From the NCBI RefSeq assembly GCF_900209925.1, contig NZ_LT907978.1, positions 356,001 through 420,000 of the forward strand: 64,000 nt of DNA, given 5' to 3'. A program made the translations under genes and the position numbers. The DNA comes from Anaerobutyricum hallii (GTDB taxonomy: Bacteria > Bacillota > Clostridia > Lachnospirales > Lachnospiraceae). Positions 491 through 59,356 of the stretch are shown piece by piece (the stretch's first letter is position 1; each line of letters opens with the position of its first letter). The notes below the pieces were generated by a model. It was not told the origin of the DNA. It ran no database searches and saw nothing but the letters and a program-made list of their open reading frames with translations.

Positions 491-616
491 GTCAGAAAAA
501 AAGAAATAATATCCTATCCCAGATGCGGCTTCGGAGCGCGTTTAAGATGCGGACGATCATTTTAAACACAGCGACTACAGAGCAGATGGGATAGGATATT
601 ATTTCTTTTTTTTGTC
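491..616. repeat. family-1 long palindrome, copy A (probable bidirectional terminator)
   Basis: The outer stem at 502-521 pairs perfectly over 20 bp with 587-606, and is preceded by an A-tract and followed by a T-tract, so it would terminate in both directions. Inside is a 65-base core (starting GATGCGGCTTCGGAGCG) that recurs at 42.2, 47.2, 54.7, 58.2 and 58.45 kb. It lies between convergent genes. The left flank ACTGTAGATTTAGATAGTC is shared, inverted, with the copy at 42.2 kb. Confidence 0.9.
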
Positions 617-640
617 TATACGAAATCTATGAATTAGTAG

Positions 641-1390
641 TTATTCCGCAATCTCTACGTTAATATTATGTCTCTTTAAGTTCTCTAATGCATCTTCTGG
701 AATATCAGCATCGGTACAAACAGTATCAATCTCAGAGAAGGTTGTCTGAATTACAACACCCTTCTGGCTGAATTTACTGGAGTCTGCAAGAATGATCATA
801 CGATTGGCAGAGCCTTCCATATATTTCATTGTTTCTACACGCATCAGGTCATCGCAGGTAAAACCGGCATCCGGAATGAATCCGTCTGTACCTACAAAGA
901 ATTTATCTACATAGAATTCTTTTGCACATTTGCGGACAAGTGGTCCTACCATTCCCTGATATTCTTTTTGGTATTCACCACCAAGAAGAATGACTTTACG
1001 AATAGGAAGATCACGAATGCGGATAGCTATGTATGCCGAATTTGTTATAATGGTAATATCCTTTTTTAATTTTGCAAGCTGTTCTGCAAGTAAAGTACAA
1101 GTAGAACCAGATTCTAGCATGACAGTTTCGCCGTTGGAAACCATCTCAGCAGCCTTTGTGGCAATCTCGATCTTTTTGTCATAATTTATAGTTAAACGAG
1201 TATTAATATCATTGGCATTCTTAATTAAAGCGTAGCCATGTTCTCTTGATAAAAGTCCCTCTTCTTCAAGATGGTCAAGGTCTTTACGGATGGTTACCTG
1301 AGACACATCTAAAAGTTCAGCTAAACGACTCACTTCGATTTTTTGATAAAGATTTACCAATTTAATGAGTTTGGACTGACGTTCTGTCAT
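641..1390 (-). CDS. DeoR-family transcriptional regulator
   Basis: A 249-residue protein with an N-terminal winged helix (SRLAELLDVSQVTIRKDLDHLEEEG, first ~60 residues) and a C-terminal sugar-isomerase-like effector domain (TVMLESGSTCTLLAEQL, IFVGTDGF-type motifs), the normal DeoR architecture and length. I start it at 1390 because AGAGGTG lies just upstream; the frame is open further upstream but that part is unlike the family. The family represses sugar-metabolism genes and responds to sugar phosphates. It is divergent from the double-cubane protein and not next to an obvious sugar operon, so its target is not clear. Confidence 0.88.
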   Translation of the reverse strand: MTERQSKLIKLVNLYQKIEVSRLAELLDVSQVTIRKDLDHLEEEGLLSREHGYALIKNANDINTRLTINYDKKIEIATKAAEMVSNGETVMLESGSTCTLLAEQLAKLKKDITIITNSAYIAIRIRDLPIRKVILLGGEYQKEYQGMVGPLVRKCAKEFYVDKFFVGTDGFIPDAGFTCDDLMRVETMKYMEGSANRMIILADSSKFSQKGVVIQTTFSEIDTVCTDADIPEDALENLKRHNINVEIAE

Positions 1391-1737
1391 TTGAAACACC
1401 TCTTTCTTTCTAAAAAAAGTATAACATACTACTTGGCAAAAATTCAAGGAAGAAATAGGAAAAAGAGAAAGAAAATATAGAGAAATTGTTATAAAAATAT
1501 CGTTCTTGTTGTGGCTTTTCATAAATGCAGGAATGGCGAGAGGATGAAAAGGATTCTGTCTGATTCCAAGAGTATTATTTAACAGGGTATTATAAAACCC
1601 ATTATAATAATGAAGAAACTCATTCAACTGGCACTGGTAGAATCGTGTATCAAGTATCGTGGGTGCTTGATTTGAAAGTATGGATTGTGAAGCTGTAATA
1701 TGATAAAATATCGTGTGGAAATCTTCTTATGTATAAT

Positions 1738-1773
1738 TTGACAGGGATTATTTTTTGATAGTATTATTATAAT
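1738..1773 (+). promoter_or_regulatory. sigma-A-type promoter of the double-cubane/dnaE/pfkA genes
   Basis: TTGACA at 1738-1743 is followed after 18 bases by TATTAT (1762-1767), which runs directly into TATAAT (1768-1773). The start codon lies 39 bases further on. Confidence 0.6.
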
Positions 1774-1812
1774 AAGGCATAGATTGCAATTATTGAGAAA
1801 GGGATAAGTATT

Positions 1813-2961
1813 ATGGAATTAATTAAAGCACTGCCGGAGATTTTTGAAGATTTTGCGGAACAGAGAAAGAATTCTTTTTTAACGATGAAGGAGCTTAAGG
1901 ATAAAAATGTTCCGGTTATAGGAGCATATTGTACATATTTCCCGCAGGAGATTGCGATGGCTATGGGAGCGGTTACAGTAGGACTTTGTTCTACATCTGA
2001 TGAGACGATTCCAGTGGCGGAGAGAGATTTACCAAGAAATTTATGTCCTATGGTAAAGGCAAGTTATGGCTTTGCGGTATCAGATAAGTGTCCCTTCTTT
2101 TATTTTTCAGATGTGGTAGTTGGAGAGACGACCTGTGATGGAAAGAAAAAGATGTATGAACTGATGGGAGAGTTTAAAAATGTTTACGTTATGGAACTTC
2201 CAAACAGTCAGAGTGAAACGGCATTAAAGCTTTGGAAAGAAGAGATTCTTAAGTTCAAATCTTATCTGGAGCAGACTTTCAAAGTGGTGATTACAGAGGA
2301 GAACGTTCGTAAGGCAGTTCATATGATGAATGAAAATAGAATTGCGCTTAAAAATCTTTATGAAGTTATGAAAAATGACCCGGCACCGATGAATGGACAG
2401 GAATTGTTTAATGTATTATATGGAAGTCAGTTCCGTTTTGATAAAGAAAAGGTTCCAGAAGAAATCAATGCGCTTCGTGAAAAGATTATGAAAGAGTATG
2501 AAGAGAACGAAAAAATGCCGAAAAAGAAGAGGATTCTTTTAACCGGATGCCCAAGCAGCGGAGCACCTATGAAAGTTGTTAAAGCGCTTGAGGAGAATGG
2601 TGCGATTGTTGTTGCTTATGAAAATTGTGGCGGTACAAAGTCGGTTGACCGTTTAATAGATGAATCAGCAGAGGATATTTATGAGGCGATTGCGGAAAGA
2701 TATCTTCAGATTGGCTGTTCTGTTATGACACCGAATAAGAATCGTTATGAATTGATCGGAAGATTAATAGAAGAATATCAGATTGATGGTGTTGTGGAAA
2801 TGACATTGCAGGCATGCCACACATATAATGTGGAGGCAAAGAGTATTGAAAAGTTTGTAAAAGGAAAGGGCGTTCCGTATATTCATGTGGAGACCGATTA
2901 TTCACAGGAGGATATTGGACAGCTCAATACGAGAATGACAGCATTTGTCGAAATGTTGTAA
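1813..2961 (+). CDS. 2-hydroxyacyl-CoA dehydratase-like double-cubane cluster protein
   Basis: A 382-residue member of the HgdB/FldB-like superfamily. Conserved cysteines in the right contexts are visible (GAYCTYFP, NLCPMVKASYG, ETTCDGKKKMYE, TGCPSSGAP). The whole-length match is to the stand-alone single-gene branch (double-cubane cluster protein, YjiM-like) rather than a two-subunit dehydratase: there is no second subunit beside it and no ATP-dependent activator. Double-cubane proteins bind an [8Fe-9S] cluster and catalyse ATP-driven low-potential reductions; the physiological substrate is generally unknown. It is 18 bases upstream of dnaE and probably cotranscribed with it. Confidence 0.8.
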   Translation: MELIKALPEIFEDFAEQRKNSFLTMKELKDKNVPVIGAYCTYFPQEIAMAMGAVTVGLCSTSDETIPVAERDLPRNLCPMVKASYGFAVSDKCPFFYFSDVVVGETTCDGKKKMYELMGEFKNVYVMELPNSQSETALKLWKEEILKFKSYLEQTFKVVITEENVRKAVHMMNENRIALKNLYEVMKNDPAPMNGQELFNVLYGSQFRFDKEKVPEEINALREKIMKEYEENEKMPKKKRILLTGCPSSGAPMKVVKALEENGAIVVAYENCGGTKSVDRLIDESAEDIYEAIAERYLQIGCSVMTPNKNRYELIGRLIEEYQIDGVVEMTLQACHTYNVEAKSIEKFVKGKGVPYIHVETDYSQEDIGQLNTRMTAFVEML

Positions 2962-2979
2962 GAGGAGGAAGAGACACCT

Positions 2980-7535: not shown

Positions 7536-7710
7536 GACAGACGAAGAACCCCGTATATCTAAGAAGGAATTTTGTTCCGTTGCGTTAAACGTTCCATTCT
7601 GCCTGATAAAACAACCTTGCTCGAAAACGAGCTCGCAAGGTTACAGTCAGAATTCCACAACGCAAAGTCACAAAATTTCTTCTTGGATATACGGGGTTTT
7701 TCGTCTGTTT
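7536..7710. repeat. family-3 long palindrome, copy G (probable bidirectional terminator)
   Basis: The outer stem (CCCCGTATATC near 7549 with GATATACGGGG near 7686, plus A- and T-tracts and terminal CAGACGA/TCGTCTG) encloses conserved arms (TTCCGTTGCGTT... and ...CAACGCAAAGTCACAAAAT) around an inner hairpin AACCTTGC/GCAAGGTT. The same arms, with a different outer stem and inner hairpin, recur at 59.2 kb. It fills the gap between convergent pfkA and the alcohol dehydrogenase. Confidence 0.88.
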
Positions 7711-34225: not shown

Positions 34226-34229
34226 GGAG

Positions 34230-45146: not shown

Positions 45147-45158
45147 GGCAGATTAACT

Positions 45159-46871: not shown

Positions 46872-46903
46872 TTAAATAGGAATTTTCTATAGACAAGGGA
46901 TAC

Positions 46904-47037: not shown

Positions 47038-47168
47038 TGCTGGGGATGAAATTACTATTTACTATTTGGAGTGCTTTAAGATATCGCTACAATGAATACA
47101 GTAGCCTTCTGCTCCCTCCCCTTCTCTCCCCAAAGACTATTTCATTCATTCCATGTGAAGCCAAAACA

Positions 47169-47292
47169 CAGAAAAAAGAAATACTGCCCCATCCCAGATG
47201 CGGCTTCGGAGCGTGTTTAAGATGCGGATGAGCATCTTAAACACAGCGACTACAAAGCAGATGGGATAGGGCATTATTTCTTTTTTCGTCTG
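47169..47292. repeat. family-1 long palindrome, copy C, with conserved left flank
   Basis: The outer stem AGAAATACTGCCCCATCCC pairs with GGGATAGGGCATTATTTCT with two mismatches. The core orientation is as in copy A. The 65 bases to its left (from ~47097, CCCCAAAGACTATT, GTGAAGCC) are the inverted equivalent of the flank found right of copies D, E and F. It lies between convergent fba and malQ. Confidence 0.9.
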
Positions 47293-47307
47293 TTTTTTTC
47301 AATTAAA

Positions 47308-48789
47308 TTAATTCAGTCGACCATATATTTTGGTTTCTTCATAGAGCCAATCGGCCAGTTCGTCATTATAATCTTCTGGCAGGCATCGCCATGTCCAGTT
47401 TCCGCCCAGTGTAGAAGGTGTATTCATTCTGCCTTCTACTCCAAGTCCAAGAAAATCCTGCATCTGCATAATCGCAGTATCGGCAACACTTGCCCAGGCA
47501 CAACGCATCATACCAATATGATAACCTTCTTCTTTTGTAAGGCGAAGGTAACGAATGGCATTGTTTTGGAATTCTTCCGGAGCGGTTTCAAACCAGCCAA
47601 GGATGGTATCATTATCGTGTGTTCCTGTGTATACAATGCAATTATTTGGATAACAGTGTGGAAGATAACCGGAACCGGTATCTCTGCTGTCAAAAGCAAA
47701 TTCGAGGACTTTCATTCCTGGAAATCCAGTAGCTGCTAAAAGCTGTTTTACGGAGTCTGTTAAGAATCCGAGATCTTCTGCAATAATAGGCAGTTTGCCA
47801 AGTTTGTTCTCGATCGTAGTGAATAAATCCATGCCAGGTCCTGGTTTCCAATGTCCATTTTTGGCGGTGGAATCACCATATGGAATGGCATAGTATTCAT
47901 CAAATCCGCGGAAGTGGTCGATGCGGATCACATCGTAGATTTTTGACTGGTAAGCAATACGGTTTACCCACCATTGGTACCCGGTTTCTTTCATGTAGTC
48001 CCAGTTGAAAAGAGGGTTGCCCCAAAGCTGACCGTCAGCGGAAAATCCGTCAGGTGGGCATCCGGCAACTTCGATTGGACAAAGGTTTTCATCAAGCTGG
48101 AATTCTTCCGGGTGTGCCCAAACGTCAGCGCTGTCGTAAGAAACATAAATAGGCAGATCACCAATAATTTTTATATTATTTTCTTCTGCATGTGCTTTTA
48201 ACTTGTCCCATTGATAGAAAAATAAAAACTGTACCTTTTTCCAGAACAGGATTTCATCGGTAAGTTCCTGGTGGATGGCTTCAAGAGAATCTTTTTCTCT
48301 TTTCTGGAGAGTTTCCGGCCACTCTTTCCAGGATTGACCGCCATGGTAATCTTTAATCGACATATACAATGCATAATCATCTAACCAGAATTTCTGTTCT
48401 TTACAGAATTTTTGAAATTGTTCGGAAAGTACTCCGGCTATACGGGAGCAGGCTGTTTTTAAGACAGTAAATTTATGACCGTAAAGCAGACCGTAATCTA
48501 CTGCAGCCGGCTGATCGCCCCAGGAGAGAGAAGCATATTCTTCTTCTTGTAACAGCCCTTCTTCTTTTAAATCATCAAAGTCAATCATATATGGATTGCC
48601 GGCATAGGAGGAGAAAGACTGATAAGGAGAATTCCCATATCCTGTTGGACATATCGGAAGAATCTGCCAGTATGTCTGTCCGGCACGATGTAAAAATTGT
48701 ATAAAATCACGCGCGCACTGTCCTAGTGTTCCAACTCCGTAAGGGGAAGGAAGGGAAGTGATCGGCATTAGTATTCCTGCGGTTCTCAT
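47308..48789 (-). CDS. malQ: 4-alpha-glucanotransferase
   Basis: A 493-residue GH77 enzyme disproportionating maltodextrins and releasing glucose. Seen: the N-terminal GILMPITSLPSPYGVGTLG, nucleophile region VIRIDHFRGFDEYYAIPYG, acid/base IIAEDLG and YTGTHDNDTILGW. Length is normal. It is the last gene of the minus-strand maltodextrin operon. GGAGG precedes the ATG. Confidence 0.95.
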   Translation of the reverse strand: MRTAGILMPITSLPSPYGVGTLGQCARDFIQFLHRAGQTYWQILPICPTGYGNSPYQSFSSYAGNPYMIDFDDLKEEGLLQEEEYASLSWGDQPAAVDYGLLYGHKFTVLKTACSRIAGVLSEQFQKFCKEQKFWLDDYALYMSIKDYHGGQSWKEWPETLQKREKDSLEAIHQELTDEILFWKKVQFLFFYQWDKLKAHAEENNIKIIGDLPIYVSYDSADVWAHPEEFQLDENLCPIEVAGCPPDGFSADGQLWGNPLFNWDYMKETGYQWWVNRIAYQSKIYDVIRIDHFRGFDEYYAIPYGDSTAKNGHWKPGPGMDLFTTIENKLGKLPIIAEDLGFLTDSVKQLLAATGFPGMKVLEFAFDSRDTGSGYLPHCYPNNCIVYTGTHDNDTILGWFETAPEEFQNNAIRYLRLTKEEGYHIGMMRCAWASVADTAIMQMQDFLGLGVEGRMNTPSTLGGNWTWRCLPEDYNDELADWLYEETKIYGRLN

Positions 48790-48811
48790 AAGAGACCTCC
48801 TATTTTTTCTA

Positions 48812-48850
48812 TTTTAATTCTTTAATTCTTTAACTCTTTAATTTTTTAAT
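48812..48850. repeat. 9-base tandem repeat at the end of the LacI gene
   Basis: About four copies of TTTAATTCT-like units (TTTAATTCT, TTTAATTCT, TTTAACTCT, TTTAATTTT) run from the malQ-lacI gap into the final codons of the regulator gene. Confidence 0.65.
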
Positions 48851-49848
48851 TCCATGACACTTTCACCTTCAATTAAATGAAATGGTGTTGTTTTATGTGT
48901 TGCATGATAAGGATAATTAATTCGCTGCAGCATCAGGTCAACTCCCTTTTTAGCAAGCTGTGTTGTGTCCTGCTGTACGGTTGTAAGGCGAGGTACGCAG
49001 TATCTGGAAAGTGCGATACCATCATATCCGACGATGGAAATGTCTTCGGGCACTCTTTTTCCCATGTCATAGATTGCACGCATTGTTCCAAGGGCAATTA
49101 GATCACTCATTGCAAAAATAGCAGTGATAGCAGTATTACGGTTTAGAAGCCGCATGGCCGCCTGGTAGCTCTTTTCCATGGAAAAGCGGCAAGGCTCATA
49201 TTGCAGTCGCTGGTTAAATGAAAGTTTGCTGTTTTTAAACCCCCATTTTGCACCGGTAAATCTTCGAAAGCTAATCTCAGTTTCCGTCAGGTTACCGCCG
49301 ATAACACCAATAGATGTATGCCCTTTTTTTGCCAGATATTCGATGACTGCCTGTGCAGCCTGTTCATCACAGGTTGTTAAAGAAGAAAGATTATCAAAGT
49401 CCAAATCGCTGCTGTTGTTGGTCAATAAAAGGCAGGGGATGTGGATGTGGGCAAAATCTTCTTTAAAATATTCTAAGTTACCGCCTAAGAAAACGATTCC
49501 TTTTGGATTGCGGTTGCGGCAAAGCTGGATTGCATAGTTTACTTCATTGGCATCTTCATCTATATAATAGGTAGAAACATTTTCTCCATTCTTTAAGAAG
49601 AGAGACTGCATCTGTTCTACAATGTCGGCAAATAGCAGGTTAGAGGTTCCTTTTACAATAAGAATAACAGAGGAACTGGACTGCATTTTCAGATGTCGGG
49701 CATTGCTGTTTGGCTGGAAATTATTTTCTTCAATTACGCTCAATATTTTCTTTCTGGCCTTTTCGCTGACATCTGGGTGATTATTTAAAACCCGGGATAC
49801 GGTTCCAATACCGTATCCCGATAAACGAGCAATATCTTTGATTGTCAT
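48838..49848 (-). CDS. LacI-family transcriptional regulator of the maltodextrin operon
   Basis: 336 residues: N-terminal helix-turn-helix with hinge (TIKDIARLSGYGIGTVSRVLNNHPDVSEKARKKIL) and a periplasmic-binding-like effector domain (GIVFLGGN, SIGVIGGN, ISIVGYDGIALSRYCVPRLTTVQQD). I use ATG 49848, giving eight bases to GGAAGG; an ATG six bases earlier is too close. Position between the permease genes and malQ suggests it controls this operon, and a palindrome downstream of the operon promoter is a likely operator. Confidence 0.9.
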   Translation of the reverse strand: MTIKDIARLSGYGIGTVSRVLNNHPDVSEKARKKILSVIEENNFQPNSNARHLKMQSSSSVILIVKGTSNLLFADIVEQMQSLFLKNGENVSTYYIDEDANEVNYAIQLCRNRNPKGIVFLGGNLEYFKEDFAHIHIPCLLLTNNSSDLDFDNLSSLTTCDEQAAQAVIEYLAKKGHTSIGVIGGNLTETEISFRRFTGAKWGFKNSKLSFNQRLQYEPCRFSMEKSYQAAMRLLNRNTAITAIFAMSDLIALGTMRAIYDMGKRVPEDISIVGYDGIALSRYCVPRLTTVQQDTTQLAKKGVDLMLQRINYPYHATHKTTPFHLIEGESVMELKN

Positions 49849-49883
49849 ACGCATTACCTTCCAAATAAATGATATGTAATATA

Positions 49884-50717
49884 TTACCCCTTAACTGCGC
49901 CTGCCGCAACACCTTTAATAATATATTTCTGGCAGCTTAAGTAGAATACAATAACAGGGATAACTGCCATGATCAGGCACGCCATGATGGCACCCATATC
50001 TACTCGTCCATAACTTCCCTTCATGTACTGGATGATGATGGAGATTGTTTTGTATTTCTTAATGTCAAGAATCAGGTATGGAAGAAGGAAGTCGTTCCAG
50101 ATCCACATTGCTTCAAGAATACCTACAGAAATATATGTTGGTTTCATAATTGGAAGGACAACAGAGAAGAAAGTACGGATAGGATTACATCCGTCAATCA
50201 TAGCTGCTTCCTCGATTTCAACAGGGATAGACTTTACAAAGCCGCAGAACATAAATACGGCAAGTCCGGCACCAAATCCCAGATAAACAATAATGAGTCC
50301 CCATGGAGTATTTAATCCAAGTGTATCAGCAGTTCCTGATAAAGTGAACATGACCATCTGGAAAGGAATTACCATGGAAAATACGCATAAAAGGTAAATT
50401 AATTTTGTAATCTTGTTCTGTACGCGGGTAATGTACCAAGCACACATGGAACAGCATACGAGGATAACGATAACAGAGAGAACGGTAATAAATACGGTCC
50501 AGCCTACTGCTTTAATAAAGTCATATTTTGTGATACTGGTTAAATAGTTTTCAAGACCTACATAACTTTTTTCATTTGGAAGTTTAAATGGCTCTAAACT
50601 GATGAATGCTTTCTTTTTAAAGGAGTTCATCAAAACGATTAAAATTGGTGAGACAAATAATATGGAAATAAGGGTGAAAAATATGGTTGCAAAAATACCA
50701 CTTGTTTTATTTTTCAT
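49884..50717 (-). CDS. sugar ABC transporter permease (MalG-like)
   Basis: A 277-residue inner-membrane protein with six predicted membrane segments and the EAA loop EIEEAAMIDGCNPIRTFFSVVLP that docks the ATPase. Forms a heterodimeric channel with the upstream permease. Its start codon overlaps the upstream stop by one base (TAATG), showing translational coupling. Confidence 0.92.
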   Translation of the reverse strand: MKNKTSGIFATIFFTLISILFVSPILIVLMNSFKKKAFISLEPFKLPNEKSYVGLENYLTSITKYDFIKAVGWTVFITVLSVIVILVCCSMCAWYITRVQNKITKLIYLLCVFSMVIPFQMVMFTLSGTADTLGLNTPWGLIIVYLGFGAGLAVFMFCGFVKSIPVEIEEAAMIDGCNPIRTFFSVVLPIMKPTYISVGILEAMWIWNDFLLPYLILDIKKYKTISIIIQYMKGSYGRVDMGAIMACLIMAVIPVIVFYLSCQKYIIKGVAAGAVKG

Positions 50718-51559
50718 TATTGCTGTACCTCCTTGCTCTTAGTAGCATAAAGCTGAATCATACCGATAGCGACAACGATGATAAAGAAGATAACCGCTTT
50801 TGCCTGACCGACACCCTCATATCCGACACGACCGTAGAAGGTATCGTAAATATTCAGTGCCATCATTTCTGTCTGATGCATCGGTTCACCGCCTGTCAGG
50901 GACAGGTTCTGGTCAAAGAGTTTAAATGAGTTTGTAATTGTTAAAAATGTACAGATTGTAATAGAAGGCATCATGTTTGGAATCGTAACATGAATAAGAC
51001 GCTGCCATTTATTTGCTCCGTCAATCATGGCAGCCTCATTTAAGGAGCCAGGAATTGCCTGAAGTCCGGCAATGTAAACGATCATCATGTAACCAATCTG
51101 CTGCCAGCATATTAAAATGACAAGACCCCAGAAACCAAGCTTTGTACTTAATTTCAGTGCCAGGTCAAATTTTTCAAAAATACCATCAAAGATTAACTGC
51201 CAGATATAACCGAGTACGATACCACCGATTAAGTTAGGCATAAAGAATATAGTACGGAAAATGTTTGTGCCTTTGATTTTCTGTGTCAGTGCAAGTGCGA
51301 TAGCAAAGGCAAGAACGTTGATTAAAATTAAAGTTACAACAGCAAAAACTGCTGTAAAGCCAAATGCATGAGTAAATGTATTGTCTTTAAATGCTTCTAC
51401 ATAATTAGATAAGCCCACGAAAGAGGCATCTCTGATTGTAGTAAATTTGCAAAATGATAAGTAAATACCTTCGATGAAAGGAACGATGAAGCCGATGATA
51501 AATGCTGCGAATGTAGGAAGTACAAAAATCGGCCAGTATTTTTTAATGGACTTTTCCAT
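50717..51559 (-). CDS. sugar ABC transporter permease (MalF-like)
   Basis: A 280-residue membrane protein with six segments and the EAA loop LNEAAMIDGANKWQRLIHVTIPN. I start it at 51559 where TTAAGGAGG lies upstream; the longer frame adds an unlike N-terminus. It lacks the large extra periplasmic loop of E. coli MalF, as usual in Gram-positives. Confidence 0.92.
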   Translation of the reverse strand: MEKSIKKYWPIFVLPTFAAFIIGFIVPFIEGIYLSFCKFTTIRDASFVGLSNYVEAFKDNTFTHAFGFTAVFAVVTLILINVLAFAIALALTQKIKGTNIFRTIFFMPNLIGGIVLGYIWQLIFDGIFEKFDLALKLSTKLGFWGLVILICWQQIGYMMIVYIAGLQAIPGSLNEAAMIDGANKWQRLIHVTIPNMMPSITICTFLTITNSFKLFDQNLSLTGGEPMHQTEMMALNIYDTFYGRVGYEGVGQAKAVIFFIIVVAIGMIQLYATKSKEVQQ

Positions 51560-51650
51560 AGTAGCAATAGCCTCCTTAAAAAATACAGGGAGGACGGTAT
51601 GTCCACCCTGCATCTGAGATATGTTTATAAGTTTTTGTTTCGATTTGTAT

Positions 51651-51682
51651 TTAAACTGTTTTAAATAGAGGAGAGTTTAAAC
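51651..51682 (-). repeat. inverted repeat between binding-protein and permease genes
   Basis: TTTAAACT (51651-51658) pairs with AGTTTAAA (51675-51682). Located where many ABC operons carry an intercistronic stem-loop that keeps binding-protein expression higher than permease expression; there is no strong U-tract. Confidence 0.45.
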
Positions 51683-51695
51683 TTGTTATAAAAAG

Positions 51696-53015
51696 TTATT
51701 TTGTAGCGGCAGCGGCTTCTTTAGCCCATCCGTCAACAAATGCAGTCTGTACTAACTTCCAGTTTGCATCTGTCTGGTCTGCTGCATAAGTAGTAAGTGC
51801 AGAACCTAAGTCGTTCTTCCACTGTTCAGATGGCATTGTAGAGAATGTCCAGTCTACAGGAGTATAACCTTTTTCCATGTAGTCGTTTGCGATGTTAACC
51901 AGTGGGTTTTCAGATTCTAAGTTGTTTTTGAAAGGAATAACGAATCCCATTCCGTCTGCGCTGCACATCATCTTTGTACCTTCTTCAGAAGTTACGCACC
52001 AGTTCATGAAATCAAGTGTTGCCTGAATATCTTCTTTGCTTGCATTTTTATTTACACACCAGTAATTCTCTGTACCAGTACAAAGTCCCTGTTTCTCTTC
52101 GCCAGGAGCACCAATATAAATAGGAAGCATTCCAAGATTATCATCTCCAACATCAGCGATATCACCATATGCCCATGTACCATTCTGATAGAATACAGCC
52201 TGCTCTGTTGTGAATTCAGCTACAGCGTCATCACCAGTCTTCTTGCTTAACTGTTTTGCATCACATGTTCCATTGTTGATGTATAAATCCCAGATGTTAC
52301 GGTAGTTATCAAGGTAAGTACCTTTGATTGCTTTTGTATCTGTGATGCCATCTTTCTGGTATTCATAGTAAATAGGAAGGTTTGCAAGATGTGTTTTAAA
52401 TCTCCAGTCAGAAGAACCGTCCATACCAGCAGAAGTAAATGCGGAGAATCCTAATTCATCTTTTCTCTTTGTGATATCTTCAGCAACTTTCTTTAAATCT
52501 GCGAAAGATTTGATATCATCCTGTGTGTAACCAGCTTTTTTAAGAAGTGCTTTGTTGTAGATTAAACCGTAAGTTTCTGTACAGTAACCAACACCTGCGA
52601 TTTCATCGCCGTTCTTTAATTCAAACTTATCACTTGTAAGTTCATTTAAAATATCAGAACCTGTTAAATCGTAGCAGTAGTCTTTCCATGAAGCAAGACC
52701 TACAGGACCGTTAACCTGGAAAAGAGTAGGAGCTTCGGATTTACCCATCTCACTCTTTAAAGTAGTTTCGTACTGGTTTGCTGCTGCTGTTACTACTGTA
52801 ACTGGAACACCAGTTTCGTCTGTGTATTCTTTTGCAAGTTCCTGCCACTGTTCATCTGCTTCTGGTTTGAAGTTAAGATAGTAAACAGAACCTTTGGATG
52901 AGTCCTTATCAGAAGATGCTTTCTTGTCGGAACTTCCGCCGCCACATCCGGTGAGCATGGAACAAGCCATGATTGTTGCTAAGCCTGCTGCAAGTAATCG
53001 TTTCATTTTTCTCAT
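51696..53015 (-). CDS. maltodextrin-type extracellular solute-binding lipoprotein
   Basis: 439 residues: a signal peptide ending in the lipobox LTGC (Cys ~25), a Ser/Lys/Asp-rich linker, and a family-1 binding fold (EDITKRKDELGFSAF, YNKALLKKAGYTQDDIKSFADL, AVFYQNGTWAYGDI). First gene of the minus-strand operon with two permeases, LacI and MalQ, which points to maltose or maltodextrin as ligand. Unlike the two anchored binding proteins at 20-24 kb it is a conventional lipoprotein. Confidence 0.92.
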   Translation of the reverse strand: MRKMKRLLAAGLATIMACSMLTGCGGGSSDKKASSDKDSSKGSVYYLNFKPEADEQWQELAKEYTDETGVPVTVVTAAANQYETTLKSEMGKSEAPTLFQVNGPVGLASWKDYCYDLTGSDILNELTSDKFELKNGDEIAGVGYCTETYGLIYNKALLKKAGYTQDDIKSFADLKKVAEDITKRKDELGFSAFTSAGMDGSSDWRFKTHLANLPIYYEYQKDGITDTKAIKGTYLDNYRNIWDLYINNGTCDAKQLSKKTGDDAVAEFTTEQAVFYQNGTWAYGDIADVGDDNLGMLPIYIGAPGEEKQGLCTGTENYWCVNKNASKEDIQATLDFMNWCVTSEEGTKMMCSADGMGFVIPFKNNLESENPLVNIANDYMEKGYTPVDWTFSTMPSEQWKNDLGSALTTYAADQTDANWKLVQTAFVDGWAKEAAAATK

Positions 53016-53080
53016 AATAATGAATCCTCCTTCTTAAATGTCCTTGCGTGTCTTGCGACTTAAGAGTATGTAACTATGTA

Positions 53081-53108
53081 CTGGAACCGTTTTCGGAAAT
53101 GTTTCCAG
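53081..53108. promoter_or_regulatory. operator candidate (LacI/CcpA type) in the maltodextrin operon leader
   Basis: CTGGAA (53081-53086) and TTCCAG (53103-53108) bound an imperfect palindrome; nested within it TGGAACCGTTTTC fits the catabolite-response consensus core TGNAANCGNWNNC. It begins 15 bases downstream of the minus-strand -10 box, a typical roadblock position. Confidence 0.65.
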
Positions 53109-53123
53109 TTGTTTGATAAGCAT

Positions 53124-53153
53124 ATTATATAACGCACATGGGAGATATTACAA
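53124..53153 (-). promoter_or_regulatory. promoter of the maltodextrin operon
   Basis: On the minus strand TTGTAA (53148-53153), an 18-base spacer and TATAAT (53124-53129). Confidence 0.75.
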
Positions 53154-53266
53154 GTATTTTTTGTCGAATACAAAAATTTTGTTAAAAGTGATTGAAAAAC
53201 ATAATAAAAACTATGCATGTTGAACAAAGAACTTGACTGCAAAATAAAATTTTTTTTAAAAGGGTA

Positions 53267-53295
53267 TGGACAAACTAAAAAAAGTAGTGTATACT
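53267..53295 (+). promoter_or_regulatory. promoter of the MsmX-like ATPase gene
   Basis: TGGACA (53267-53272), a 17-base spacer and TATACT (53290-53295), leaving a leader of about 210 bases. Confidence 0.7.
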
Positions 53296-53301
53296 CAGCC
53301 T

Positions 53302-53511
53302 TAAATTACAGGGAAATCCTGTAAAATTAAAAATTTTTATTCCCCCCTGAACCGTCTCACTCCACTTTCTGAACGGTCAGGGCAAAGAAAAGGAGGATAA
53401 CCGTCAGACTTGCGGTGCGGCAGTGTGGAGACCTGTCGTAATGTGGCGCGGAAGTAATCGCCGGCTGCGAGGTGATATCGTGCGGAGGCAGTATCACTAA
53501 AGTCTAAGAAT
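53302..53511 (+). ncRNA. GC-rich structured 5' leader of the MsmX-like gene
   Basis: Hairpin TTACAGG/CCTGTAA (53306-53324); strong hairpin CCCTGA.CCGT/ACGGTCAGGG (~53345-53382); then a multibranch region closed by AGACTT (53406-53411) and AAGTCT (53500-53505) holding GGCAG/CTGTC, GGCG/CGCC and GGTGATA/TATCACT (53471-53498) hairpins. GGAGG (53484-53488) is in the loop of the last hairpin, 23 bases from the ATG, and no ribosome-binding site lies at normal distance. Base composition is clearly richer in GC than the surroundings. I do not recognise a known class. Confidence 0.6.
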
Positions 53512-54684
53512 ATGGCAGAGGTAACATTAAAACACATTAAAAAAGTTTACCCAAACACAGAGAAGAAGAGCAAAAAGGGCCAGAAGAAGAGTAATCTTAT
53601 GGTTACAGACGAAGGCGTATTAGCAGTTCAGGACTTCAATCTTGATATCAAGGATCGCGAATTCATCGTATTAGTAGGTCCATCCGGATGTGGTAAGTCC
53701 ACAACACTTCGTATGGTAGCCGGTCTTGAAGAAATCAGTGGCGGAGAACTCCTCATTGATGGAAAGAGAATGAATGATATAGCTCCAAAGGGTCGTGATA
53801 TCGCTATGGTATTCCAGAGTTATGCGCTGTATCCACATATGACAGTTCGCGAGAACATGGAATTCCCATTAAAACTTCGCAAGATGCCAAAAGATGAGAT
53901 GAATAAGAGAGTGGACGAAGTAGCAGAAATTCTTGATATTACACAGTATCTTGACCGTAAGCCAAAGGCCTTATCCGGTGGACAGCGCCAGAGAGTTGCC
54001 ATTGGTCGTGCGATTGTAAGAGAACCGAAAGTTCTTTTAATGGATGAGCCTTTATCAAACTTAGATGCCAAGCTTCGTAACCAGATGAGAGCAGAGCTTA
54101 TCAAGCTCCGTCAGAGAATTGATACAACATTTATCTATGTAACACATGACCAGACAGAAGCCATGACACTTGGTGACCGTATCGTTATCATGAAGGATGG
54201 AATCGTACAGCAGGTCGGAACTCCACAGGAAGTATTTGACCATCCGGCGAACATCTTTGTAGCAGGCTTTATCGGTATGCCACAGATGAATATGTTTGAT
54301 GCGAAACTCATAGAACAGTCTGGAAAATACAGTGTAGAATTAGGTGGTGTTTCCATTATACTTTCCGAAGAAAAACAGGCAGCACTCGCTAAAAATAACG
54401 TAAAATCACAGGAGATCACCCTTGGAATCCGCCCAGAACACATCACTTTAGCAGAGGCTGGCAAAGACGCCATCACAGGTAAAGTGGACGTATCCGAGAT
54501 GATGGGAAGTGCGATTCATTTACATGTCAATGCCTGTGGAAGAGATACAATCATCATTGTACAGACGATGGATTTAACAGGTGGAGAAGATTTATCGATC
54601 GGAAGCGAAATCTCCTTCGCATTTGGCGGAAACGCAGTCCATGTGTTCAATAAAGAAAGTGGAGAGAATCTGGAATTCATTTAG
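53512..54684 (+). CDS. msmX: multi-sugar ABC transporter ATP-binding protein (MsmX/UgpC type)
   Basis: 390 residues. ATPase domain with Walker A VGPSGCGKSTTLRMVAGLE, Q-loop MVFQSYALYP, signature LSGGQRQRVAIGRAIV, Walker B VLLMDEPLSNLDA and H-loop THDQTEAM, then a C-terminal TOBE/MOP regulatory domain. Such ATPases energise several carbohydrate importers; it is divergent from a maltodextrin permease operon that has no ATPase of its own. A 14-residue basic insertion (KKSKKGQKKSN) sits near the N-terminus. There is no conventional ribosome-binding site before the ATG. Confidence 0.93.
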   Translation: MAEVTLKHIKKVYPNTEKKSKKGQKKSNLMVTDEGVLAVQDFNLDIKDREFIVLVGPSGCGKSTTLRMVAGLEEISGGELLIDGKRMNDIAPKGRDIAMVFQSYALYPHMTVRENMEFPLKLRKMPKDEMNKRVDEVAEILDITQYLDRKPKALSGGQRQRVAIGRAIVREPKVLLMDEPLSNLDAKLRNQMRAELIKLRQRIDTTFIYVTHDQTEAMTLGDRIVIMKDGIVQQVGTPQEVFDHPANIFVAGFIGMPQMNMFDAKLIEQSGKYSVELGGVSIILSEEKQAALAKNNVKSQEITLGIRPEHITLAEAGKDAITGKVDVSEMMGSAIHLHVNACGRDTIIIVQTMDLTGGEDLSIGSEISFAFGGNAVHVFNKESGENLEFI

Positions 54685-54689
54685 AGAAA

Positions 54690-54870
54690 AACAGACGAAA
54701 AAAGAAATAATACCATATCCCACCTGCTCTGTAGTCGCTGTGTTTAAGATGCTTATACGCATCTTAAACACGCTCCGAAGCCGCATCTGGGATATGGTAT
54801 TATTTCTTTTTTCTGTGTTTTGGCTCCAGAAGGAATGAATTCAATAGTCTTTGGGGAGATAAAGGGGAGA
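54690..54870. repeat. family-1 long palindrome, copy D, plus truncated right flank
   Basis: The palindrome (54690-54816) has the stem variant TACCAT/ATGGTA. It is followed by the flank TTTTGGCTCCAGAAGGAATG...CAATAGTCTTTGGGGAGAT, which is cut at ~54870 by the insertion sequence and resumes at ~56850. Confidence 0.9.
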
Positions 54871-56845
54871 CTGTCCGAAAACTCGGATAATCTAATCTTA
54901 TGAGAAAAAGATAGGTATGCTCTTGTGAACATTCAAGATAAATTAAAATTGCACATTGAAAACTGAATAAAGTACACAGAAATCGTGCATCTATGTTTCA
55001 GATATAGTATAATGAAACCAGAGAAAAATTGTTCTGAGGTGAATTGAGATGCCATATGTTTCAGGTTTCGACCGTGACCAGCTGATGTGCTGTTCATGGG
55101 ATACGTTTGTAGATAAAGAAAGTATTGCAAGGATAATTGATGCGTTTGTGAACCATCTTGATATAGGGAAATACGGTGTAAAACCTGTGGCAACAGAAGG
55201 TCGTCCATCTTACGATCCTAAGAGCCTTTATAAGATCTATATTTACGGAAGCAGGAAAGGTATCCGTTCTTCACGGAAACTGGCTGAAAGCTGTAAAGTA
55301 AATCTTGAAGTGAAATGGATGATAGGCGGTGTAGAACCGGATTTTCGCACCATTGCAGATTTCAGGAAAAACAACATAGGTAGCCTAAAAGAGATTTTTT
55401 ATGAATTCAACCGTCGGATATCCGGTGCAGTGGAATGGGGATTTTCTTCCGTGGATGGAACAAAGATCCAGGCGAATAATGCAAAAGATAACAACTTCAC
55501 CAAAAACAAACTGGATGACAGGATCAAATGGCTGAATGGTCATACAGATGAGTATCTGAGAATCCTGAATGAAATGGACAAGCAGGAAGAAACAGACGAG
55601 ATTTTAGGAGAACTGACAAGAGAAAGTCTTGAAGCCAAGTTAAAAGAAGCACAGGAGAGACTTGCCAGATACGAAGGTTATCAGAAGCTGATGGAAGAAA
55701 CCGGGGCATCCCAGCTTTCAATCACAGATGCGGATGCAAAACTCATGAAAAATAAAAATGGGTTTACGGTAGCATATAACCCACAGACGGCGGTAGATTC
55801 TGAAACACATCTGATCCGTGATTTTCAGATGACCAATCAGGTAACTGACCATGGATTACTAGAAAGTACGATGCAGGGGATAAAGAACTCTGAACCGGAA
55901 AAAATCATAGAAGTAGTAGCAGATAAAGGTTATGAAGCTGCGGAAGATATGGTGGAGTGTTTGGAGAACGGTATTATCCCACATGTCATGACAGATGATG
56001 GAAAAGACGGTTATCACATAGAAATTCCTTATGAAGAGACAGAAACGGATACTGCCAGCACAGAGCCGGAAGAACTAAAGAAAGCACTGCATGCAGGTAA
56101 GCTACCGGAAGTTTATGCAGAAGTGATACAGGATATGAAGGTGGAAACAGTCCGTTGTAAAGTGGTGGATGAAAAACCGGAAAACAGAAGCGTATATGGA
56201 AGTCCTGAAGAAATGCAGGAAAAGGCAAGAGAAGGTTATTTTGTCAGAGATCCAGAAAGAAATCTGGTATATTGTCCGGGAGGAGAAATCCTGAGACAGA
56301 AAAGTATAAAGAAAAATGGGAACATTCGTTATGCCAATAAAAATGCCTGTAAACATTGTCCAAATCGTAATAAGTGTTACAAAGGAAAAGGGGAATGGAA
56401 AGAGATAGATTTTACCAAAGACCAGTTGGTAAAACCATGTAAGGATTGGCTGAAAGCAGAGGGAAAGGAACCCGAAGAGACAAAAACAAGTGAAAAATGG
56501 CATTATGAAAAAAGAAAGGTTGTGAAGTTTTTCCTGAAACCGGATAAAGAAAAGATGAGCCGGAGGATGTGCCTGTCGGAGCATCCGTTTGGAACAATAA
56601 AACGAGCAATGGGAGCCACTTATTTTCTTTTAAGGGGAATACGGAAAGTGGCTGGAGAGTTTGCGCTCTTTTGTCTGGGTTATAACCTGGAACGGGCGAA
56701 GAATCTCCTTGGATTTCAAAAAATGATGGAATTGATGGAACAGGCATAAGCCTCTTTCTTCATCCTGTGTATTTTATTCAGTTTTCAATGTCACAGATGA
56801 AGGAAAGGGGCTAAATTTATGCCTAAAAATAAGGTTTTCGGACAG
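54871..56845 (+). mobile_element. IS1182-family insertion sequence
   Basis: Terminal inverted repeat CTGTCCGAAAAC (54871-54882) and its complement (56834-56845). A perfect 18-bp subterminal inverted repeat (CATTGAAAACTGAATAAA, 54954-54971 and 56773-56790) flanks the single transposase gene. The boundaries agree with interruption of a repeat flank that is continuous at 58.3-58.4 kb. I see no clean target-site duplication. Confidence 0.88.
55049..56749 (+). CDS. IS1182-family transposase
   Basis: A 566-residue DDE transposase, full length. N-terminal DUF772-type domain (DKESIARIIDAFVNHL, YDPKSLYKIYIYGSRKGIRSSRKLAESCKVNLEVKWM, PDFRTIADFRKNN), the first catalytic Asp in GFSSVDGTKIQANNAKDNN, VADKGYEAAED for the second, a cysteine-rich segment (CKHCPNRNKCYKG) and a C-terminal EHPFGTIKRAMG with the last acidic residue. 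The frame is intact, so the element may be active. Confidence 0.93.
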   Translation: MPYVSGFDRDQLMCCSWDTFVDKESIARIIDAFVNHLDIGKYGVKPVATEGRPSYDPKSLYKIYIYGSRKGIRSSRKLAESCKVNLEVKWMIGGVEPDFRTIADFRKNNIGSLKEIFYEFNRRISGAVEWGFSSVDGTKIQANNAKDNNFTKNKLDDRIKWLNGHTDEYLRILNEMDKQEETDEILGELTRESLEAKLKEAQERLARYEGYQKLMEETGASQLSITDADAKLMKNKNGFTVAYNPQTAVDSETHLIRDFQMTNQVTDHGLLESTMQGIKNSEPEKIIEVVADKGYEAAEDMVECLENGIIPHVMTDDGKDGYHIEIPYEETETDTASTEPEELKKALHAGKLPEVYAEVIQDMKVETVRCKVVDEKPENRSVYGSPEEMQEKAREGYFVRDPERNLVYCPGGEILRQKSIKKNGNIRYANKNACKHCPNRNKCYKGKGEWKEIDFTKDQLVKPCKDWLKAEGKEPEETKTSEKWHYEKRKVVKFFLKPDKEKMSRRMCLSEHPFGTIKRAMGATYFLLRGIRKVAGEFALFCLGYNLERAKNLLGFQKMMELMEQA

Positions 56846-57091
56846 GCTGAGGGGGGGAGAAATCAGAAGACTACTGCTTGCTCGAAAGGTATACCATCCA
56901 TAAGAGAAAAATGATATATTGCCACAATATAGTAGTGAATTTATCGTATACAATGATAGCTGACGATATTATCTTATCAGCATTGACAGCATCGTGGAGA
57001 CAATATCAGAATAAGCCATGACCGTCTGTCCCCTTCCCCATCTCTTTCCCCAAAGACTATTGATATCATTCCTTCTGGAGCCAACAAACAG
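56846..57091. other. resumed repeat flank and non-coding stretch
   Basis: GGGGGGAGAAATCAGAAGACTACTGCTTGCTCGAAAGG continues the repeat flank broken by the insertion sequence. After about 120 bases without a visible feature, ~57030-57090 carries the inverted flank CCCCAAAGACTATT...CTTCTGGAGCC that leads into palindrome J. Confidence 0.7.
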
Positions 57092-57213
57092 AAAATAAAA
57101 AGAATAGACTATAGCAAATGTAATGTGAGAGCAAGTAAAAATGCCGATTAGGCATTTTCTACGCAGTGATATCTTTACATTTGCTATAGTCTATTCTTTT
57201 TATTTTCGTCTGT
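57092..57213. repeat. family-2 long palindrome, copy J
   Basis: A perfect 32-bp outer stem (57092-57123 with 57175-57206), unrelated in sequence to that of copy I, surrounds the same core (GTAAAAATGCCGA, AGGCATTTTCTACGC). Ends in TTTTCGTCTG. Confidence 0.9.
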
Positions 57214-57338
57214 TTCCCCTAATGAATCAAATAGTAACTACCTGGTAATTTTCTTGAAATCAGAAATTTGCTTCTCATCCTATAGAAATGATAAAATTAT
57301 ACTTATGAAAAAAATCGCAGGAAGGATAAGAAGATTGT

Positions 57339-58196
57339 ATGAGGAAAAGGAATAGTTGGATACAAAAGAAAAGTGTTGTAGTTATAATAGCAGTTCTTTT
57401 ATTAATAGCAATTTTAGCTGTGGCAGCGGAACTTGGAATGAAAAGTGGTAGCAGACCGCTAGGAATGATAGAAAAGATTAAGAATGGGAATAAGGATAAT
57501 AATGAGAGTAATTCGGATTCTGATTTGGATTCAGACAACATGGAAGGAGAAGATGGGGAGAGGGAATCCAAGAATGATTCAGACAGTGAATTGAACACAG
57601 GATACGGTTATGAGATGGATGTATTTTCTGATAAGAACAATTCAACTGAGAAAAAGACCGTTTATGAAAAAGGTTATGATCTTCCAGTAGACGAGCAGGA
57701 AAATAAAACGGCAAAAGAAGAATTACATGAGATGATGCAGGCTGTTTGGCCTATTTATGATAAAAGTGAAAAAGGTGATACCAGCAATGTAGTATTACCG
57801 AATAAGACTGTCAAGAAGATATTGGATAAGATAGAAAGCTGTTCTGTTCCGGCATTTTTTAGCGGAAGAGAAGAACATATGTGTAATGCAGACAAATTTG
57901 ATGCATTTTTAAAGAAAGCACAAAAAGGAGAAAAGGACAGTATTGTAGTATATGAAGTTCACGAAGATGGTGGTATCGGACGGAATAAATATATTTTTGA
58001 TGGACAAAATATGTATGTCTTATATGTCGGCTCCGTCTGGAATGATGATGAAGACGTAATCAGTATTGACACAACTTATACAAGAATAAAAGAATGGAAC
58101 TATGCAAAAGATGGTTGGTTTACTGGAGAATATTGTGTACCAGAACCACCGGAAAGATCTGAAACAGTAGATGGAAGGTTTAGGATTCTGGTTTAA
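57339..58196 (+). CDS. hypothetical membrane-anchored extracellular protein
   Basis: 285 residues. A basic N-terminus and one membrane segment (residues 11-33), then an Asn/Ser/Asp/Glu-rich low-complexity linker (~50-105) and a C-terminal domain of ~170 residues (VWPIYDKSEKGDTSNVV, CSVPAFFSGREEHMCNADKFDAFL, YEVHEDGGIGRNKYIFDGQNMYVLYVGSVW) I cannot assign to a known function. A fragment resembling its YEVHEDGG region lies at 58.7 kb. Weak ribosome-binding site (GGAAGGA, 20 bases away), and surrounded by repeats, suggesting accessory status. Confidence 0.72.
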   Translation: MRKRNSWIQKKSVVVIIAVLLLIAILAVAAELGMKSGSRPLGMIEKIKNGNKDNNESNSDSDLDSDNMEGEDGERESKNDSDSELNTGYGYEMDVFSDKNNSTEKKTVYEKGYDLPVDEQENKTAKEELHEMMQAVWPIYDKSEKGDTSNVVLPNKTVKKILDKIESCSVPAFFSGREEHMCNADKFDAFLKKAQKGEKDSIVVYEVHEDGGIGRNKYIFDGQNMYVLYVGSVWNDDEDVISIDTTYTRIKEWNYAKDGWFTGEYCVPEPPERSETVDGRFRILV

Positions 58197-58208
58197 TTTG
58201 TTAAGCTA

Positions 58209-58434
58209 AACAGACGAAAAAAGAAATAATACCATATCCCATCTGCTCTGTAGTCGCTGTGTTTAAGATGCTTATGCGCATCTTAAACACGCTCCGAAGC
58301 CGCATCTGGGATATGGTATTATTTCTTTTTTCTGTGTTTTGGCTCCAGAAGGAATGAATTCAATAGTCTTTGGGGAGATGAAGGGGGAGAAATCAGAAGA
58401 CTACTGCTTGCTCGAAAGGTATCTCGTCAGATTT
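58209..58434. repeat. family-1 long palindrome, copy E, with full right flank
   Basis: The palindrome is 58209-58334 (stem variant TACCAT/ATGGTA), then the uninterrupted flank CTCCAGAAGGAATGAATTC...CTACTGCTTGCTCGAAAGGTATCTCGTCAG. Forms a direct tandem with copy F at a spacing of about 237 bases. Confidence 0.92.
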
Positions 58435-58444
58435 ATTAGGAGAA

Positions 58445-58670
58445 AACAGACGAAAAAAAGAAACAATGTCATATCCCATCTGCTCTGTAGTCGCTGTGTT
58501 TAAGATGCTCATCCGCATCTTAAACATGCTCCGAAGCCGCATCTGGGATATGGTATTATTTCTTTTTTCTGTGTTTTGGCTCCAGAAGGAATGAATTCAA
58601 TAGTCTTTGGGGAGATAAAGGGGGATAGGTCAGAAGTCTACTGCTTGCTCGAAAGATATCTCATCAGAAG
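58445..58670. repeat. family-1 long palindrome, copy F, with right flank
   Basis: The palindrome is 58445-58571. Its 5' arm reads AACAATGTCATATCCC against a 3' arm GGGATATGGTATTATT, so two or three stem pairs are broken, unlike the other copies. The flank matches copy E with a few substitutions. Confidence 0.9.
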
Positions 58671-58707
58671 ATTATATTCTATCTTTAACGAGTAGTAAAA
58701 AGAAAGG

Positions 58708-58740
58708 GCATATGAAGTTCATGAAGATGGTGGTTTCGGA
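58708..58740 (+). pseudogene. short remnant of a paralog of the 57339-58196 gene
   Basis: The bases encode YEVHEDGGFG, against YEVHEDGGIG in the intact gene, with matching nucleotides on either side of the shared block. Nothing else of the gene is present, so this is a deletion relic. Confidence 0.6.
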
Positions 58741-58781
58741 AACTGAAATTACTGGTTAATATTGGATGATTTAGAAGGAAA

Positions 58782-58943
58782 TCAAAGCAGAAATCTATTC
58801 TTTTCTTCATTAGTTAACTGTGTTACTTTTATTCCTTTTTCTTTGGCATAGTTCATCAATCCTCTTAAGTCCACTTTTTTTTGAATTTGGCTTAACATAA
58901 TAGGTTCTGGCATATGTCTTAAAGATTCTTTATATTTCGTCAT
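58782..58943 (-). CDS. small hypothetical protein (53 aa)
   Basis: MTKYKESLRHMPEPIMLSQ..., basic and helical, with the pattern LRGLMNYAKEKGIKVTQLTNEEK. It begins inside the preceding small gene with an overlap of 14 bases, the usual sign of translational coupling. I do not recognise the family. A longer frame upstream is open but is the shadow of the neighbour. Confidence 0.5.
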   Translation of the reverse strand: MTKYKESLRHMPEPIMLSQIQKKVDLRGLMNYAKEKGIKVTQLTNEEKNRFLL

Positions 58944-59094
58944 CTGTCCAGTCATAATCATACATCTCCATAATTCTTTTCGCATTCTCCTCATCAATAG
59001 CAAATTGATAAGGGTGTAACATCGCTATTATTTCCCCGTTAAACACTTCAACGTAATGCTGAAGCAAATTTTGATTTGCAGCAAATCCATACAT
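58930..59094 (-). CDS. small hypothetical protein (54 aa), possibly the truncated end of a larger gene
   Basis: MYGFAANQNLLQHYVEVFN... ending in DYDWTDDEI; acidic. It has no ribosome-binding site, and repeat-flank sequence (AAATCCAAATACTAATTT) starts directly upstream. A stop lies two codons before the ATG. It may be the 3' remainder of a gene disrupted by the repeat. It overlaps the following small gene. Confidence 0.42.
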   Translation of the reverse strand: MYGFAANQNLLQHYVEVFNGEIIAMLHPYQFAIDEENAKRIMEMYDYDWTDDEI

Positions 59095-59190
59095 AAATCA
59101 ACCAAATCCAAATACTAATTTTCTATTTGTTATCAAAACCAGACAGCCGCTGAAACAAAATTTTATGCTGAATTGTAAGAAGACTATGAT

Positions 59191-59356
59191 AAAGAAAAAA
59201 GAATTGTTATAAGTATTGCATTTTGTGACTTTGCGCTATGGAATTCTGACCATAGGAACTTGGGATTCGTTTTTCCCAAGTTCCTGTTTTTCTGGGCAGA
59301 ATGGAATGCTTAGCGCAACGGAACAAAATCAAACTTATAACCATTCTTTTTTCTTT
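59191..59356. repeat. family-3 long palindrome, copy H
   Basis: The outer stem AAAGAAAAAAGAATTGTTATAAG pairs with CTTATAACCATTCTTTTTTCTTT; the conserved arms CATTTTGTGACTTTGCG and CGCAACGGAACAAAAT surround an inner hairpin AGGAACTTGGG/CCCAAGTTCCT. Arms shared with copy G (7.5 kb). The flanks from 59120 match, inverted, the core-less hairpin locus at 42.4 kb. It lies just after the hydrogenase gene. Confidence 0.88.

Follow-up and report, generated by a model that had tools for sequence, protein, structure and literature searches.

A high-copy family of long hairpins at gene ends in two Anaerobutyricum genomes, with outer stems that change in pairs

The stretch of DNA analyzed here (the window) comprises 64,000 nucleotides (nt) of Anaerobutyricum hallii, positions 356001-420000 of one 3,515,670-base contig, and contains a family of long hairpins that lie at the ends of genes. 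Each hairpin is 115-175 nt in size and consists of a frame (ACAGACG ... TGT), an outer stem of 26-33 base pairs (bp), a conserved asymmetric core and an inner stem-loop. The palindromes were checked by inverted-repeat search and folding, by which the palindromes described in an earlier note on this DNA were confirmed, and the CAGACGA / TCTG or CGTCTG frame that it had described around them was also found. Two covariance models were used, R1 for the hairpins with a core of class K1 and R2 for those of class K2. R1 detected nine strong K1 hairpins and one degenerate copy (33853-33968) in the window, and R2 detected two K2 hairpins. The features are as follows; unless another basis is given, K1 hairpins were identified by inverted repeat, folding and R1, and K2 hairpins by inverted repeat, folding and R2. 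Elements I and II are composite repeats, described below, of which some of the hairpins form the ends.

496-612, minus strand: K1 hairpin, core 1, with flanks of the Element II type; the gene 641-1627 (minus strand) has its stop codon 29 nt away.
7537-7708, plus strand: K2 hairpin occupying the whole space between two genes that converge on it (stops at 7511 and 7711).
33853-33968, plus strand: degenerate K1-like hairpin, 3' of the stop codon at 33830, overlooked in the earlier note (R1, 31.2 bits, E 3.8e-5).
42167-42283, plus strand: K1 hairpin, core 1, lying 3' of the stop codon at 42139 and forming the left end of an Element II.
42430-42469, no strand assigned: short coreless relative of the 59190-type K2 hairpin with the same flanks (folding; flank likeness judged by eye).
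42862-42997, minus strand: K1 hairpin, core 2; the stop codon at 43009 is 11 nt away.
46904-47030, plus strand: K1 hairpin, core 3 (the dominant type in A. hallii DSM 3353), 3' of the stop codon at 46871.
47171-47287, minus strand: K1 hairpin, core 1, forming the end of an Element I; the stop codon at 47308 is 20 nt away.
54697-54813, plus strand: K1 hairpin, core 1, lying 3' of the stop codon at 54684 and forming the left end of an Element I copy.
55049-56749, plus strand: DDE transposase gene of an insertion sequence with termini of its own, a passenger inside the Element I copy 54655-57250.
57091-57207, minus strand: K1 hairpin, core 2, closing the Element I copy 54655-57250 on the right.
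58216-58332, plus strand: K1 hairpin, core 1, 3' of the stop codon at 58196; core 3 stands here in A. hallii DSM 3353.
58453-58569, plus strand: K1 hairpin, core 1, a recombinant whose arms come from two different haplotypes, with several mismatches (folding, arm comparison, R1).
59190-59357, minus strand: K2 hairpin, right-end module of the Element II type; the stop codon at 59428 is 71 nt away.

Further hairpins without a K1 or K2 core were seen 3' of genes at 19087-19146, 27703-27757 and 38541-38652 and are plain terminators or remnants; at the place of the last one, A. hallii DSM 3353, the closest relative of the window genome among the genomes compared, carries two facing K1 hairpins. No Rfam family matched the hairpins at the gathering score, and the only matches in the window, to the known cis-regulatory RNAs malK-I (53341-53517) and the pan motif (34149-34229), lay elsewhere. 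The elements at loci L062, L032 and L001 gave sub-threshold Rfam matches only.

Alignment of the cores in a common orientation showed that they fall into two classes, in place of the three families plus single ones proposed earlier. K1 consists of cores 1, 2 and 3, in all of which the inner stem is enclosed by a TAgTCGCkG-like 5' side and a GCTCyRARG-like 3' side, and K2 consists of the 7537 and 59190 types, which share TTCCATTyTGCC and GTCARAATTCCA. The core-1 and core-2 hairpins of the window genome are A-rich on the 5' side and T-rich on the 3' side. One hundred core-1 hairpins were collected by motif in segments fetched from the window genome, 99 of them with the usual inner length and 96 in register. 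In 95 of the 99, the AGACGA-type frame lay on the GTCGC side of the core, and the other four looked degenerate or offset rather than inverted. Core, stem and outer frame thus behave as one module. The suggestion that the cores were inserts taken up in the loops of existing terminators found no support, given this fixed orientation of the frame and the many modules that form the ends of larger inverted-repeat elements. The outer stems had been called wholly different from one another, which held between cores and between many copies of A. hallii DSM 3353, whereas the core-1 copies of the window genome form one stem family varying by paired changes. One K1 hairpin of A. hallii DSM 3353 (L243:8853-9069) has, in place of the inner stem, a far longer imperfect inverted repeat resembling a gene fragment.

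Paired change of the stems was measured in two sets. In an alignment of 32 K1 hairpins, five from the window and 27 picked as intact from the A. hallii DSM 3353 sample, 404 cells were changed on both sides, compared with a mean of 110.8 with shuffled partners, and the covariation score was 0.774 against 0.193 in the shuffled alignments, a value reached in none of 500 shuffles; 92.8% of the cells were paired, a figure raised by the picking of intact hairpins. Covariation beyond all 500 shuffles agrees with the earlier proposal of a structure kept for pairing rather than for sequence. The 96 core-1 hairpins in register contained only 37 mismatches in 2304 outer pairs (mean 271 with the arms shuffled between copies), and 74 of them were perfect, with 38 distinct left arms in the set. 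In the core-1 inner stem an A-C mismatch was common at one position (30 of 99), which corresponds to G-U on the opposite strand.

Ordinary compensatory selection on a structured RNA or a two-way terminator, in which the arms mutate separately and pairing is restored without any arm copying, would explain the strong covariation at every varying pair, the terminator-like position, and a core that stays asymmetric and oriented. The kinds of change observed fit it less well. Among correctly paired departures from the commonest pair in core 1, double transversions were as common as double transitions (73 and 72 cells). The mismatches in the core-1 outer arms were A-C in 15 cases, G-T in 10 and others in 12, and those in 1291 pairs of 40 A. 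hallii DSM 3353 hairpins found by motif were G-T in 14, A-C in 9 and others in 10; because G-T does not outnumber A-C consistently, there is no clear G-U excess on the core strand, unlike the expectation for selection on a one-strand RNA. The arms of these 40 hairpins were 33 bp long in 20 and 32 bp in 11 by our count, which implies that length changed on both sides at once. In addition, segments that are usually unpaired became exact complements of the opposite arm in a few copies, which selection for pairing alone does not predict. Pairing selection is thus consistent with the covariation, but as the sole cause it is a possible, though unlikely, account.

Six such copies were found, four exact and two with one mismatch, in which a usually lopsided segment was rewritten as the complement of the other arm. 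The core-1 hairpin at L317:2884-2999 has the usual frame and 55 perfect pairs, and in its core the left half has become complementary to the right. In the 59190 type of K2 hairpin, the left arm usually carries AAGTTTGA or AAGTTAGA and the right arm AAGTATTGCA (27 captured); hairpin 2385484 carries the right-hand version on both arms, hairpin 888059 the left-hand version on both arms (by eye, outside the motif capture), and hairpin 319268 the left-hand version on both arms with one mismatch, while K2 hairpin 3212178 has an inner right segment complementary to the left one (by eye). In A. hallii DSM 3353, core 3 at L228:17691-17790 is symmetric save for one base (by eye, outside the catch of the motif scan). 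A dedicated system could be imagined in which the asymmetric core is recognized by a protein that causes one arm to be recopied from its partner by fold-back, the stem being renewed at each movement or repair and each gene end receiving its own matched stem; such a stem-renewing mobile terminator, having taken over the gene ends of one lineage, seems doubtful.

Comparison of orthologous junctions, as the earlier note had proposed, showed different cores at several gene ends of the two sister species. The window region 41900-61800 aligned piecewise to contig C85 of A. hallii DSM 3353 with 85-97% identity. At the gene ends at 43009 and 58196 and at the place of 57091, the window genome carries cores 2, 1 and 2, respectively, and A. 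hallii DSM 3353 has core 3 with unrelated stems; locus L039 showed the same pattern of differing hairpins. At L271 a single core-3 hairpin in A. hallii DSM 3353 stands against about 1.2 kilobases (kb) with several hairpins in the window genome. At the place of 47171, the same CGTCTGT frame in A. hallii DSM 3353 encloses a smaller hairpin whose loop is different, which argues against a simple one-for-one exchange. Most alignment gaps at the compared junctions were unrelated insertions or deletions. A 337-bp stretch at L089 and junction case C, taken at one point for insertions, were re-read as sequence that A. hallii DSM 3353 has lost by deletion between short repeats. A repeat with the ends TTTATCTCAGTCGAG, present at L259 and in the window-genome segment 3113944-3117711 (junction cases C and K) and absent at the same places of A. 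hallii DSM 3353, looks like another small mobile repeat.

The swapping of hairpins at orthologous sites, together with the existence of chimeric and fused copies, is what would be expected if recombination alone had shuffled a few ancestral, perfectly paired hairpins as whole modules with no new paired change. This is quite improbable, as the 38 distinct left arms among the 96 core-1 hairpins show independent combinations at several positions, and crossovers within hairpins would give mismatched arms, yet such arms are a minority. A guide-like role, in which the address-like hypervariable stems between fixed frames match targets elsewhere in the genome or serve for capture, was rejected as scarcely credible, since the best match of 82 stems outside their own hairpins was 17 bases long with 34.2 bits, close to the shuffled controls (30.2-32.2), in pooled sequence covering about a tenth of each of the two genomes, and the excess of weak matches (8168 in all against 2333-2816 shuffled) was put down, without proof, to unmasked hairpin copies and A-rich sequence.

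The position of the hairpins was that of intrinsic terminators, being soon after stop codons and seldom in divergent gaps. For this count genes were called mechanically (at least 100 codons) and every long inverted repeat with a loop was included, not K1 and K2 alone. Among 97 long-hairpin clusters with a gene on both sides, in 83 segments of the window genome, 40 were convergent, 51 tandem, 6 divergent and none inside an open frame, with 11 more at segment edges; as the segments were chosen for holding hairpins, these counts stand without an unbiased background. On the stop-codon side the median of 131 distances in these segments was 27 nt, with 95 within 40 nt, and on the start-codon side the median of 63 distances was 176 nt, with 5 within 40 nt. 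In contigs of A. hallii DSM 3353 chosen by number, 11 clusters were 5 convergent, 5 tandem and 1 divergent, with 6 more at edges, and 10 of 15 stop-side distances were at most 40 nt and 2 above 400 nt. In the window itself, with genes by our own choice, K1 or K2 hairpins occupied four of the five convergent gaps and a plain 30-bp hairpin the fifth, and none was present in the five divergent gaps. Short plain hairpins follow several of the same genes in congeners. The distance to stop codons, the many convergent gaps and the few divergent ones suggest that the hairpins act as two-way intrinsic terminators, as had been proposed.

The palindromes had been taken for single units, but several of them are the ends of larger composite repeats. 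These composites are 0.4-1 kb long with inverted termini, and many hairpins of the family lie at their ends, facing each other. With one core-1 hairpin and its flanks as the query, at least 42 near-full-length copies were found in the window genome, a lower bound with at most 40 of 302 candidate regions scored, and at many of these places a core-2 hairpin lay a few hundred bases beyond the core-1 hairpin, oriented alike. In Element I, the left end TTACTATTTGATTCATT..CAGACGA mirrors the right end TCGTCTG..AATGAATCAAATAGTAA, and the frame was present at both ends in 25 of 34 terminus pairs (own count, termini sought with up to 4 substitutions). In Element II, core-1 hairpins in other flanks are paired with K2 hairpins; the copy at L096, which was read through, has a core-2 module between its ends, and the other copies, judged by their flanks, probably hold one too.

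The Element I copy at 54655-57250 is broken up by an insertion sequence with its own ends, and the DDE transposase of the window was accordingly rejected as the mobilizing enzyme of the hairpin elements. Matches to Y1_Tnp numbered 13 across both genomes, most of them open frames of 135-160 amino acids. Among the 10 loci scanned, some of which end at a contig edge, three held K1 hairpins on one side of the gene only and none on both, and at none of them could a RAYT gene be linked to the hairpins; at L247 of A. hallii DSM 3353 a K1 hairpin is followed by about 350 nt with K2-like letters and then a Y1 gene, an arrangement indistinguishable from chance. Two facing K1 hairpins at L257 (2918018-2919418 of the window genome) surround an open frame of 271 amino acids, maybe a secreted protein and a possible cargo. 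A separate palindromic repeat with the ends AGAGCGTGTTTGAAAAA / TTTTTCAAACACGCTCT occurs in A. hallii DSM 3353 at L183:15353-15520, L228:6728-6923, L236:3932-4095 and L240:8219-8386.

A covariance-model search, as suggested earlier, found copies beyond the window, and among the genomes searched only in the window genome and A. hallii DSM 3353. K1 was found with R1 in 2 of 145 genomes and K2 with R2 in 2 of 116, the same two in each case; as filters were strict and at most 24 (R1) and 33 (R2) candidates per genome were scored, the copy counts are minimum values and weak matches in other genomes may have been missed. When 99 genomes were searched at the DNA level, these two came up again, together with one 30-base match in a third (G009) that R1 did not confirm. 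In a collection of genome contigs, the only named organism with the core-1 pattern was A. hallii DSM 3353, on 2 contigs (records of the window genome were perhaps excluded). Two hairpin patterns had no match in viral contigs, and a degenerate pattern matched two contigs unconfirmed by R1; carriage by phages or plasmids was rejected, with no R1-confirmed viral match and no plasmid match. In the open text of PubMed Central (PMC) no paper on inverted or repetitive extragenic repeats of Anaerobutyricum or Eubacterium hallii was found.

The densities, 10 distinct K1 matches in the 64-kb window and 20 separate sites in 140,686 bases of A. hallii DSM 3353 contigs (taken by number alone, strands merged, six contigs below 2 kb left out, own count), suggest roughly 470-550 K1 hairpins per genome. 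Core-1 motifs numbered 119 in the window-genome sequences and 9 in those of A. hallii DSM 3353, and one core-3 form 12 and 56, a contrast biased by the fetching of window-genome loci by core 1, core 2 and K2 and by a few overlapping loci; no long hairpin listed for contigs L182-L201 of A. hallii DSM 3353, which were chosen by number, had core 1.

The best overall explanation, to which we assign a probability of about 0.55, is that the hairpins are high-copy, lineage-restricted, non-coding repeats of Anaerobutyricum, similar to miniature inverted-repeat transposable elements (MITEs) or REPINs, which double as two-way terminators and whose stems are matched by arm-templated correction together with pairing selection. 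As selfish or half-domesticated repeats, the hairpins would persist at gene ends by stopping transcription both ways, and this two-way termination would make them tolerable after stop codons. The outer stem would be selected for pairing only, and its arms may be kept complementary in good part by arm-templated correction, that is, template switching at quasi-palindromes, by which a new or recombined arm would be copied onto its partner; the hairpin at 58453, with the arms of two haplotypes, may represent the state before correction. The asymmetric core, presumably held by selection, is a putative recognition site for a protein, perhaps the mobilizing enzyme. Recombination between copies would spread and swap the hairpins at fixed sites, and a different core could thereby have been spread by each species.

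Several results weigh against this explanation. Many hairpins lack the classical GC-rich stem followed by a long T run, and 3' of the aldolase gene (46871) A. hallii DSM 3353 has an ordinary terminator with no adjoining K1 hairpin. Mismatches remain in 22 of the 96 core-1 hairpins, and at L069 A. hallii DSM 3353 has a fused, internally deleted copy (L159) whose arms were left mismatched and uncorrected. A G-U excess would be hidden by selection on both strands too. The arm-copied cases are few, six among the hairpins examined, and a motif scan with 11 patterns yielded a single clean case (L317) besides L232:1446, where two hairpins are fused and the outer arms do not match. No inverted core was seen among the 99 core-1 hairpins, though template switching both homogenizes arms and inverts spacers (PMC8604942); the asymmetry and orientation of the core must therefore be held by selection. 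As for mobility, there was no consistent target duplication at the 34 Element I terminus pairs, no clean empty site was found for the repeats, and no autonomous copy was present among the loci examined.

The family shares properties with several known systems. Like bacterial MITEs, whose termini are conserved sequences tied to a transposase, the 0.4-1 kb repeats are non-coding, intergenic and present in many copies with inverted termini, but the largest part of each terminal repeat here is the variable stem, and neither a parent transposon nor a consistent target duplication was found among the loci examined. The hairpins resemble intrinsic, bidirectional terminators in lying near stop codons with an A-rich 5' side and a T-rich 3' side in the core-1 and core-2 forms, and differ in their 115-175 nt with a repeated conserved core, compared with the short plain hairpins of congeners at several of the same gene ends. 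Repetitive extragenic palindromic (REP) sequences and REPINs are described (PMC3733652) as high-copy, extragenic and palindromic, with facing pairs acting as one element, a family size that differs greatly between related species, stems of 5-13 bp and a GTAG or CGTC tag at one end. The hairpins here are likewise high-copy, extragenic, palindromic and found in facing pairs, with CGTC beside the hairpin; they differ in their 26-33 bp hypervariable outer stems, second inner stem and conserved asymmetric core, and CGTC stands within a longer frame rather than as an end tag. Template-switch quasi-palindromes (PMC8604942) also have arms homogenized by copying one from the other, and unpaired segments turned into the complement of an arm were found here as well, but the cases known there are short and single, whereas the present family has hundreds of members, in which the asymmetric core is protected and was never seen inverted.

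The hairpins form a natural set of hundreds of related structures in which pairing is kept while the sequence turns over, and they may allow two easily confused causes of covariation, selection on a folded molecule and copying of arms in DNA, to be separated. This is relevant to anyone who takes covariation as proof of a functional RNA. For these bacteria, the repeat family may have taken over many gene ends since the lineage parted from its congeners, with the dominant type of hairpin differing between the sister species.

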